DNA from: Paenarthrobacter ureafaciens
GTDB taxonomy: Bacteria > Actinomycetota > Actinomycetes > Actinomycetales > Micrococcaceae
Assembly (NCBI RefSeq): GCF_004028095.1
Contig: NZ_SBHM01000006.1
Coordinates: 124,001 to 188,000, forward strand
DNA: 64,000 bases
Direction of reading: 5' to 3'
The translations under genes and the position numbers were made by a program. The notes under the pieces are model-generated. The model was not told the origin of the DNA, ran no database searches, and worked only from the letters and a program-made list of their open reading frames with translations. Below, one piece after another: positions 972-3,779 of this stretch. How positions within the stretch are numbered: position 1 is the first letter of the stretch; the number at the start of each line of letters is the position of its first letter.

Positions 972-3500
972 TCAGGCCGGAACGATGTTCACCAGTTTAG
1001 GCGCCCTGACGATGACCGTGCGGATGCCACGGCCGTCCATTGCACGCTGGACGTTTTCAGAAGCCAAGGCCAACTCCCGGAGTTCATCCTCGGAGATGTC
1101 CGGGGAAACTTCGAGGCGGTCGCGTACCTTGCCCTGGACCTGCACCACGGCAGTCACGGTTTCCTGGACGAGGAGCGCATCGTCATGCTTGGGCCATCCG
1201 GCGTTGGCCACCGAAGCGGCGTGCCCGAGGGCGCTCCACAGGTCCTCAGCCGTGTACGGGGCAAAGAGGCTCAGGATCACTGCCACCGCTTCCACGGCTT
1301 CGCGGACAGCCGGGTCGGCTCCGCCTGCGCCGGAGTCGATGGTCTTCCGCGTGGCGTTGACCAACTCCATGAGGCGGGCCACCACAACGTTGAATTTGTT
1401 GTTGTCCAGCAGCTCGGCAGCGTCAGCGATGGTCTTGTGCGTGACGGTGCGCAGGGCCCGGTCACCGGTGGCGGGATCCGTTCCGGGCTCGCTGGTGACG
1501 TCCTGGCCAAGGCGCCAGGCGCGTGCCAGGAACTTGCCCGAGCCGGACGGTGAAACGTCAGCCCAGTCGACGTCGTCTTCCGGTGGGGAGGCGAACACCA
1601 TGGTGAGCCGGACGGCGTCCACGCCGAACTTGTCCAGCTGTTCGCCCAGGTCCACGCCATTGCCGAGGGACTTGCTCATGGCTTTGCCGCCGTTGAGCAC
1701 CTGGCCCTGGTTCAGCAAGGCGCTGAATGGCTCGTTGGTTTCGATCAGGCCCATGTCCTTGATGACCTTGGTGAAGAAGCGGGCGTAGAGCAGGTGCAGG
1801 ATCGCGTGCTCCACGCCGCCCACATACTGACCGACGGGCATCCAGTCGTTGATCTTTGCGGGATCGAACGGACCTTCGGTGTAATCCGGAGAAACGAAAC
1901 GCAGGAAGTACCACGAGGAATCGACGAACGTGTCCATGGTGTCCGTATCCCGCTGGGCTGCGCGGCCGCAGTTGGGGCATTCGACGTTGACCCATTCGAC
2001 GGCGGCGGCCAAGGGCGAGGTGCCCTTCGGCGCCAGTGCCTCGCCGCGGAGATCCGAAGGCAGGGTGACGGGAAGCTGATCGTCCGGAACGGGCACCTCG
2101 CCGCACTCACCGCAATGGATGATCGGGATGGGCGTGCCCCAGAAACGCTGGCGGCTCAACAGCCAGTCACGCAGGCGGAAGTTGACGAATTTCTCGCCGG
2201 TACCCAGTTTTTCCAGGACCTCGATGGCCGCGGGAATTGCTTCGGCCTTGCTGAGGCCGTCAAGGTCGCCGGAGTTCTTCAGCGTCCCCTCGCCGGCCGT
2301 CGCGATGCCGGTTTCGGCAGGATCGTCCTCGCCGGTGTCCAGGACTGCGCGCACCGGCAGGTTGAAGGCCTTGGCGAAGTCGAGGTCGCGCTGGTCGTGG
2401 GCAGGGACGGCCATGATGGCACCGGTGCCGTAATCCGCCAGGACGTAGTCGGCGGCCCACACGGGAAGCTTTTCGCCGTTCAGCGGGTTGATCGCGTAAC
2501 GGCCCGTGAACACGCCGGTCTTTTCGCGCTCGGTGGACTGGCGTTCGATTTCCGAGAGCGCCTTGACTTTCTCGCGGTAAGCCATGAGTTCGTCGTGCTG
2601 CTCAGGGGTGACCAGGTCCAGGGCGAGGTGGGCGTCTGCAGCCACAACGAAGAACGTTGCCCCGTACAGGGTGTCCGGGCGGGTAGTGAAGACCGTGACT
2701 TCGCGTTCCGGGCGGCTGTCCGCAGCCTCAATGACGAAGCGGACGTGTGCGCCTTCGGAACGTCCGATCCAGTTGCGCTGCATCGCCAGGACGCGCTCGG
2801 GCCAGTGGCCTTGGAGCTGGTCCATGTCCTCGAGCAGGCGGTCCGCGTAGTCGGTGATCTTGAAGTACCACTGGTTCAGCGACTTCTTGGTCACGGCGGT
2901 ACCGCAGCGCTCACAGGCTCCGTTGACAACCTGTTCGTTCGCCAGGACGGTCAGGTCCTTCGGGCACCAGTTGACCGGCGAGTCCTTGCGGTAGGCCAGT
3001 CCACGCTCGTAGAAACGCTTGAACAGCCATTGCGTCCAGCGGTAGTACTCAGGATCGGAGGTGTGCAGGCGACGCGACCAGTCCGCGGAGATGGCGTACC
3101 TCTTGAAGGACGCGGCCTGGGTGTCGATGTTGGCGTAGGTCCACTCGCTGGGGTGGGCGTTCCGCTTGATGGCGGCGTTTTCCGCCGGCAGCCCGAAGGA
3201 GTCCCAGCCGATGGGGTGCAGGACGTCGAAGCCCTTTTGACGCAGGTAGCGGGCAACAACATCGCCCATCGCAAACGCCTCCGCATGCCCCATATGAAGG
3301 TCTCCGGAAGGGTACGGGAACATGTCCAGCACATAGCGGCGTTCCCGTGAGCCGTCATCGGCCGGAGTGAACACCTTGAGGTCTTCCCAGACCTGCGGCC
3401 ACTTGGCTTCCATCGCAGCGAAGCTGTAGACGCCTTCTTCAGGCGCCGCGGCTGCGGCTGACTGTGCTGTTCCGGTCTCTGTCTCCGGCTGAACGCTCAC
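972..3500 (-). CDS. leuS: Leucyl-tRNA synthetase
   Basis: Class I aminoacyl-tRNA synthetase that charges tRNA-Leu; cytoplasmic. About 842 residues, normal for bacteria. The HIGH-type signature HMGH is at residues 69-72, after the FPYPSGDL strand. The editing domain is visible in [12 protein letters not shown] and in the [17 protein letters not shown] segment. The KMSKS loop reads KAMSKS, followed by LGNGVDLGE. The frame is open 27 codons further upstream, but GTG at 3500 follows a purine-rich AGAAGAGGG and gives the usual N-terminus; the longer start would run into the upstream leader. The gene is probably controlled by the attenuator at 3582-3661. It sits downstream of the glpK terminator and upstream of degV. 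Confidence 0.97.
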
Positions 3501-3581
3501 TGCTGCCCTCTTCTGTTCTTGATGGCGGAATAGTCCCCTGCTGCTGTTACTCGCACCGTGACCAAAATGCCCCGGACACAC

Positions 3582-3606
3582 AAAAGCCCCTCAGCAAAGG
3601 AGGGGC
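3582..3606 (-). terminator. Intrinsic terminator in the leuS leader
   Basis: Minus-strand GCCCCTC (3606-3600) pairs with GAGGGGC (3592-3586) over 7 bp around a 7-base loop, followed by TTTTG. It lies 81 bases before the leuS start, so it stops leuS transcription prematurely rather than ending an upstream gene; glpK has its own hairpin at 3718-3772. Confidence 0.7.
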
Positions 3607-3634
3607 GGCCGCTCGGCTGGTAACTGCCGGGCGG

Positions 3635-3661
3635 CTAACTAAGCAGAAGGTTCGCACGCAT
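3635..3661 (-). CDS. leuS leader peptide MRANLLLS
   Basis: An 8-codon ORF, ATG CGT GCG AAC CTT CTG CTT AGT TAG, with three consecutive leucine codons just before its stop. An AAGG element lies 7 bases upstream of the ATG at 3661. An in-frame upstream ATG at 3667 would add Met-Cys. It is too short for routine gene callers. The run of Leu codons directly upstream of leuS, followed by a hairpin and a terminator, is what identifies it; the peptide itself probably has no function beyond sensing charged tRNA-Leu. Confidence 0.65.
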   Translation of the reverse strand: MRANLLLS

Positions 3662-3673
3662 ACACATACCTTA

Positions 3674-3701: not shown

Positions 3702-3717
3702 CGACGGCGGGCTCGCA

Positions 3718-3772
3718 GGAAAGGGGCCGGTGACTGCCGCCATGGTGTGGCGGTAGTTGCCGGCCCCTTTCC
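3718..3772 (-). terminator. Long terminator hairpin after glpK
   Basis: A 13-bp perfect outer stem (GGAAAGGGGCCGG with its complement at 3760-3772) encloses a second 9-bp stem. It begins 8 bases after the glpK stop codon. It is nearly symmetrical and lacks a long U-run, but its length and position make it the likely end of the glpDFK transcript. Confidence 0.65.
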
Positions 3773-3779
3773 GTACTAC

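Follow-up and report, generated by a model that had tools for sequence, protein, structure and literature searches.

The window, i.e., the whole stretch of 64,000 nucleotides that was analysed, carries on its minus strand the gene leuS, whose deduced leucyl-tRNA synthetase clears the NCBIfam leuS_bact cut-off (960 vs. 548 bits) and finds its closest named matches in Paenarthrobacter nitroguajacolicus, at 95 % identity, which puts the genome of the window in the Arthrobacter/Paenarthrobacter group. This gene is preceded by an element of 86 bases, counted from the AUG of a short ORF to the end of a U-rich tract (3661–3576), which comprises a leader peptide with three consecutive Leu codons, a first hairpin (hairpin 1) and a terminator (Table 1). 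The ORF reads AUG CGU GCG AAC CUU CUG CUU AGU UAG, from its start codon (3661–3659, 161 nt from the GTG of leuS) to its stop codon (3637–3635). Hairpin 1, GCCGCCCGGC-loop-GCCGAGCGGC, pairs in nine of ten positions, with one C·A mismatch, and its first G is the final base of the stop codon. All the letters of a preliminary description of this locus, that is, the MRANLLLS ORF, the hairpin of 9/10 pairs and the 7-bp terminator with its U-run, are thus present on the minus strand.

Table 1. Features of the leuS leader region and the basis for each; coordinates are those of the window.
Feature	Position	Strand	Basis or remark
leuS (leucyl-tRNA synthetase), GTG start at 3500	972..3500	-	TIGR00396, 960 bits
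Predicted -10 box, TAAGGT	3668..3673	-	6 nt 5′ of the leader AUG; putative function
Leader ORF, MRANLLLS and stop UAG	3635..3661	-	Sequence; predicted to be translated from the mRNA 5′ end
Sensor codons CUU CUG CUU (Leu5–Leu7)	3641..3649	-	Leu conservation; putative sensing
Hairpin 1	3608..3635	-	Begins with the last base of the UAG stop; covariation
Gap between hairpin 1 and terminator, 1 nt	3607..3607	-	Sequence
Terminator hairpin, GCCCCUC / GAGGGGC, 7 bp	3586..3606	-	Sequence, fold
U-rich tract, UUUUGUGUGU	3576..3585	-	GGGGCTTTTGTG in 85/98 parsed leaders
AGAGGG, likely Shine-Dalgarno of leuS	3506..3511	-	Sequence alone

The folding energy of the leader is unremarkable (z of -1.36; 16 of 200 shuffles fold equally well), so that the case for it depends on comparison. 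The tail GGGGCTTTTGTG (3579–3590), frequent among the leaders parsed in the family (see below) and present in 13 of their 19 genera, occurs only once in the window's own genome, indicating that this genome does not simply use the G-interrupted U tract as its standard terminator tail. An Rfam scan of the window gave no family match at gathering score, T-box riboswitch included; at a relaxed threshold, the families matched were of the microRNA, sRNA, antisense and lncRNA types, all below that score. The microRNA matches at ca. 3710–3777 were dismissed, as they correspond to a long inverted repeat (3715–3777) situated between glpK and the leuS leader and probably functioning as a two-way terminator; related palindromes (CCCGCCCGCTTCGCGGTGCCCACCACACC...) occur 5′ of the leader in several relatives from the genus.

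Occurrence of the leader and identity of its putative sensor codons

We gathered by protein search, that is, without using the RNA, a family set of 119 leuS upstream regions, 57 from the genus of the window and 62 from 30 other genera. The leader is present in 102 of them: a pattern parse recovered 98 (56/57 from the own genus and 42/62 from the others), and a covariance model, R1, built from 23 family leaders including that of the window, rescued another four (L031, L054, L079 and L095) from the 21 parse failures. With R1 added, leader and terminator are found in 57/57 regions from the own genus, which is the conservation among close relatives that the preliminary description had proposed to examine; its central proposal, a Leu-codon leader peptide and a terminator 5′ of leuS, is likewise supported by the family comparison. 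Among the remaining regions, in L094 the leader is visible by eye and gives a weak model match (E of 0.023), and the other 16 gave no model match at E up to 1. By genus, 20 of the 31 have the leader (two of these weakly) and 11 are without it. Of the 66 loci on which it was run, R1 misses L077 (genus g23) and L080 (genus g27), both of which passed the parse; with a second model, R2, built from 64 leaders, L077 matches weakly (E of 0.31) and L080 and L096 do not match. Genera g23 and g27 are therefore counted from the parse, their model scores being weak or absent. Weak scores were also obtained for three single-hairpin leaders (L039, E of 0.006; L044, E of 0.01; L040, E of 0.1). When R1 was run on 80 named leuS loci, 57 matched with E ≤ 0.0012 and three weakly, the weak ones (L189, L193 and L194) being Glutamicibacter-like in appearance; at E up to 1 there was no match in the loci from Kocuria (seven), Rothia (two), Micrococcus, Nesterenkonia, Yaniella and Auritidibacter (one each), nor in another three Glutamicibacter-like loci (L187, L190 and L192).

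Across the order, R1 identified the leader in 77 of 297 genomes, in single copy in each, and with R2 it was found in 145 of 394 genomes at class level and 18 of 246 at phylum level. The own genome contains no second copy at E up to 5 with R1 or up to 10 with R2. Five genomes of the class do have two copies, preceding LeuS and citramalate synthase genes in three of them, LeuS and acetolactate synthase genes in another, and two different LeuS genes in genome G804, one copy per gene. The leader element is real and widespread. In a group of loci (L133, L142, L145–L148, L235 and L236) the same leader precedes a LeuS only ca. 40 % identical to that of the window, and G804 has both kinds; the maintenance of the leader with a divergent LeuS suggests either gene replacement in place or a mobile leader-gene pair.

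The leader peptide has eight codons in 83 of the 98 parsed leaders. Among leaders of 8 or 17 codons, Leu occupies codon 5 in 83/87, codon 6 in 79/87 and codon 7 in 87/87, and codons 2–4 vary from genus to genus. In the final Leu position CUU predominates, a codon that represents 19 of the 207 Leu codons in four ORFs from the window.

Genomic surroundings were inspected for a part of the model matches, gene names being checked on ten proteins and assigned to the rest by tblastn to these. The 30 best-scoring R1 loci that were kept, 14 of them from the family of the window, precede LeuS (28) or citramalate synthase (two) genes. A batch of 59 chosen loci from the order and class comprised 40 before LeuS, 14 before citramalate synthase, three before acetolactate synthase (one of which, L257, was named by its likeness to L234), one at a contig end (L268, which ends before any gene) and one apparently false. 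Five loci from outside the class were situated before LeuS (two), LeuA (one) and IlvB (one), the fifth being false; the apparent false matches are L283 and L295.

The run of sensor codons follows the downstream gene. At least two consecutive Leu codons occur in 40/40 leuS leaders of the 59-locus batch; the run ends in Ile in 16/16 leaders of the citramalate synthase gene, cimA, the start codon being uncertain in a few; and the leaders of the acetolactate synthase gene, ilvB, have Ile-Leu-Val-Val in 3/3 cases within the order and class. Outside the class, the single ilvB leader has Val-Leu-Leu-Ile and the single leuA leader Leu-Leu-Leu. The cimA leaders with Ile codons (L144, L149, L231, L238, L240, L262, L264–L266, L273, L279, L280, L282 and L286–L288) share the same scaffold, and the literature matches listed included no earlier report of such leaders for citramalate synthase. 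The end of the peptide varies as well: in five loci (L037, L084, L107, L111 and L118) CAG stands in place of the UAG and the reading frame ends at a stop within hairpin 1, and many other families likewise have a sense codon at position 9, the peptides ending in EPR, GPR or RPR before the stop.

Hairpin structure and predicted start of the transcript

When 23 leaders are aligned with plain MAFFT, six of eight pairs of hairpin 1 show two-sided changes and the covariation score of the whole structure was reached by none of 500 shuffles; the number of further pair types was not above that of the shuffles, 118/500 of which reach it. An alignment of 64 model-fitted leaders, which leans towards structure, shows two-sided changes in 12/16 pairs over both hairpins. 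Of the two hairpins for which the preliminary description had suggested this check, the first covaries; the terminator stem barely varies and hence gains little support from covariation. The distance between the hairpins is short: it is 0–2 nt in 123/123 model-aligned leaders (1 nt in 98), a constancy that is partly built in because a short gap at this place is part of the model, and it is also 0–2 nt in 91/95 two-stem leaders folded without the model. The loop of hairpin 1 beyond the eight pairs ranges from 3 to 46 nt, yet this gap is maintained. In genus g28, three of five leaders (L039, L040 and L044) have no separate hairpin 1, and show instead a single fused hairpin that begins at the stop codon, together with a six-codon peptide, MAYFLG.

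The leuS leader mRNA is predicted to be leaderless, with its transcript starting at or beside position 3661, because a -10-like box is found immediately before the AUG. The preliminary description had assigned a ribosome-binding element to the leader ORF, but its AAGG (3672–3669) sits within the TAAGGT (3673–3668) of this box, and the ribosome-binding site was abandoned in favour of the promoter element. A start at the in-frame AUG at 3667, producing MCMRANLLLS, was also discarded, as it would lie 5′ of the predicted transcript start. A TANNNT box is placed 6 nt (89 leaders) or 7 nt (nine leaders) 5′ of the start codon in 98/98 parsed leaders, the parse itself requiring this motif at 5–8 nt. 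Among the 123 leaders found by the models, which do not contain the promoter, TANNNT occurs at 6–7 nt in 103, against a background of 36 in 12300 positions, and another 18, including 15 from cimA, have the looser NANNNT; for this count the script preferred a start codon with a box where several fitted. The two others are the false match L283, without a box, and a leader near a contig end, whose ORF was not found. Within the own genus, clearly distinct types of DNA precede the AUG, and the leader is closely similar from the AUG onwards. As an example, among L001–L030 either TATTGT-AGATCT-ATG or TAAGGT-ATTGGT-ATG precedes a near-identical leader, as if promoters had been swapped up to the AUG.

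Ribosome position and a proposed mechanism of attenuation

The footprint of the E. coli ribosome ends 15 nt beyond the first base in the P site, and this value was used to compute ribosome positions on the leaders, the first sensor codon being defined as the earliest codon for Leu, Ile or Val at or after codon 4. Of the 123 aligned leaders, 23 were excluded from the test of hairpin 1 freedom and 25 from that of the antiterminator, because model position 1 held no AUG or GUG, because a stop or a sensor residue was missing, or because aligned pairs or space were insufficient. A ribosome at the first sensor codon leaves hairpin 1 free, by 1–7 nt, in 92/100 leaders, whereas at the stop it covers at least 7 nt of the start of hairpin 1 in 100/100 and extends at most up to the terminator in 99; accordingly, the median probability of hairpin 1 is 0.999 in the first state (n = 100) and 0 in the second (n = 98). 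In the leader of the window, hairpin 1 is free by 1 nt in the stall and is covered over 11 nt at the stop. This geometry identifies hairpin 1 as the structure that starvation would allow.

A classical attenuator would need an antiterminator pairing with the 5′ arm of the terminator, and the preliminary description had named none. We measured the occupancy of this arm at the stage when the 3′ arm is still to be transcribed, with the ribosome stalled minus with the ribosome at the stop. None of 98 leaders exceeded +0.5, with a median of -0.01; four were above +0.3, in the classical direction, and ten below -0.3. The controls from E. coli gave +0.82 (trp), +0.98 (thr) and +0.82 (leu), and the his leader was not discriminated (0.65 vs. 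0.65), which indicates that the test can miss real antiterminators. The equilibrium probability of the terminator was rejected as a readout for being uninformative, with a median of 0.99 in each state and values of 0.85–0.995 for E. coli trp.

The reading that we favour, and consider fairly probable from these computations, is that the leader would be a leucine attenuator in which a stalled ribosome frees hairpin 1, which in turn likely blocks closure of the terminator. Transcription would begin at the AUG, and a 70S ribosome would load onto the predicted leaderless mRNA. With ample Leu-tRNA, the ribosome would proceed to the stop codon, where, by its computed footprint, it would mask the 5′ arm of hairpin 1 and not the terminator, and transcription would presumably terminate. 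A shortage of Leu-tRNA would stall the ribosome at codons 5–7, and a stall at the first Leu codon, ending by computation 1 nt short of hairpin 1, would allow this hairpin to fold. In the final and least certain step, a helix 0–2 nt from the terminator stem would crowd the exit channel of the RNA polymerase so that the terminator could not zip, and the polymerase would read through into leuS; we infer, then, that it is the position of hairpin 1 at the base of the terminator stem that hinders closure. It is conceivable, though we hold this extension with more doubt than conviction, that such an attenuator, with a leaderless transcript, about three sensor codons matched to the gene (leuS, cimA, ilvB or leuA), an abutting hairpin at 0–2 nt and no competing pairs, operates throughout the Actinomycetota.

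The main alternative is a classical mechanism in which the stall frees a segment pairing with the 5′ arm of the terminator, our test having missed the antiterminator because it is, for instance, a pseudoknot. The Streptomyces leuS element was termed classical, with antiterminator and terminator hairpins, in PMC1262725, and both the four leaders leaning that way and the behaviour of the his control agree with such an oversight. We nevertheless regard it as unlikely, since no leader reaches the range of E. coli trp, thr and leu and since hairpin 1 and the terminator have no bases in common in the 123 aligned leaders. A stalled ribosome could also block the terminator by itself, hairpin 1 being a mere pause or spacer element, as might be imagined for the single-hairpin leaders of genus g28, whose terminator begins at the stop and is within reach of a ribosome on a Leu codon. 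For the two-hairpin form this is improbable, because even the ribosome at the stop codon extends at most up to the terminator in nearly all leaders and upstream stalls are farther off, and because the covariation of hairpin 1 and its fixed phase on both sides would be left unexplained.

It is very improbable, in turn, that the element is an ordinary terminator or a decayed leader without regulation: the unremarkable folding energy and the 11 of 31 genera without the leader would fit this explanation, whereas compensatory changes, the correspondence of codon identity with the downstream gene and the presence of branched-chain genes after the model matches at nearly all inspected loci argue against it. 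Translational control of the type of the leuA LEU element, in which the Leu codons would pair with the Shine-Dalgarno region of leuS and a stall would release it, appears scarcely credible. The CUUCUG of the leader can pair with a CAGAAG beside the Shine-Dalgarno, and does so in the minimum-energy fold of the leader from the window; however, with one leader from each of 19 genera, native pairings (-10.9 kcal/mol) were no stronger than swapped ones (-11.3 kcal/mol) and 80 % of the permutations were as good, so this pairing was rejected.

Relation to known attenuators

The stalling at cognate codons predicted here as the sensor is shared with the trp, thr and leu attenuators of E. coli, which differ in that they score positive for a base-paired antiterminator, none being detectable in leaders of the type found in the window. 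The leaders from E. coli also have ribosome-binding sites, whereas the mRNA of the window is predicted to be leaderless.

Attenuators of leuS are a kind already known, having been predicted earlier in Streptomyces coelicolor and S. avermitilis (Seliverstov 2005, PMC1262725), and leuL2 of S. lividans TK24, with the peptide MRAVRLLLSEPR, was described in 2021 as leaderless by RNA-seq (PMC8079986); the precedent invoked in the preliminary description is correct. Our models find exactly MRAVRLLLSEPR followed by a stop, identical to leuL2, before leuS in both fetched genomes of genus g132 (L247 and L248), from which we infer that this genus is Streptomyces. The Streptomyces element and that of the window coincide in the gene, the peptide with a Leu run, the hairpin and the terminator with its U tract. 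Nevertheless, the peptide of the window stops at hairpin 1 (MRANLLLS) and leuL2 continues as EPR before its stop; and where an antiterminator was claimed in 2005, the window has hairpin 1, for which no pairing competition with the terminator was found. PMC1262725 also cites work on S. coelicolor in which the leader codons of ilvB were changed without effect.

The ilvB1 attenuator of Mycobacterium tuberculosis (PMC13236596) resembles the leader of the window: its uORF contains branched-chain codons, and it likewise has a hairpin and a Rho-independent terminator. It differs in being described as two mutually exclusive hairpins; replacing the branched-chain codons by Ala codons keeps its reporter low. 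The mycobacterial poly-Cys uORFs (Canestrari 2020, as mentioned in PMC13236596) share the leaderless peptide and the cognate codons, although they are ascribed to translation attenuation and the leader of the window has an intrinsic terminator. The actinobacterial leuA LEU element (PMC1262725) likewise has a leader peptide with a Leu run and includes a conserved pseudoknot among its features, but its Leu codons pair with the Shine-Dalgarno, a pairing that is unsupported in leaders of the present type. No report of the leader in Micrococcaceae was found in the literature searched, although Lopatovskaya 2010 may list one. The present analysis adds the extent of the leader in the family and class, the swap of codons between genes, the leaderless reading for the family and the negative outcome of the antiterminator test.

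These results join scattered predictions for leuS from Streptomyces into one alignable RNA scaffold that includes the leaders of leuS, cimA, ilvB and leuA, and the matching of leaders to genes amounts to a codon-swap experiment made by nature. If the step of the abutting hairpin is true, antitermination would be possible without alternative pairing, and searches that require mutually exclusive stems would overlook attenuators of this kind.
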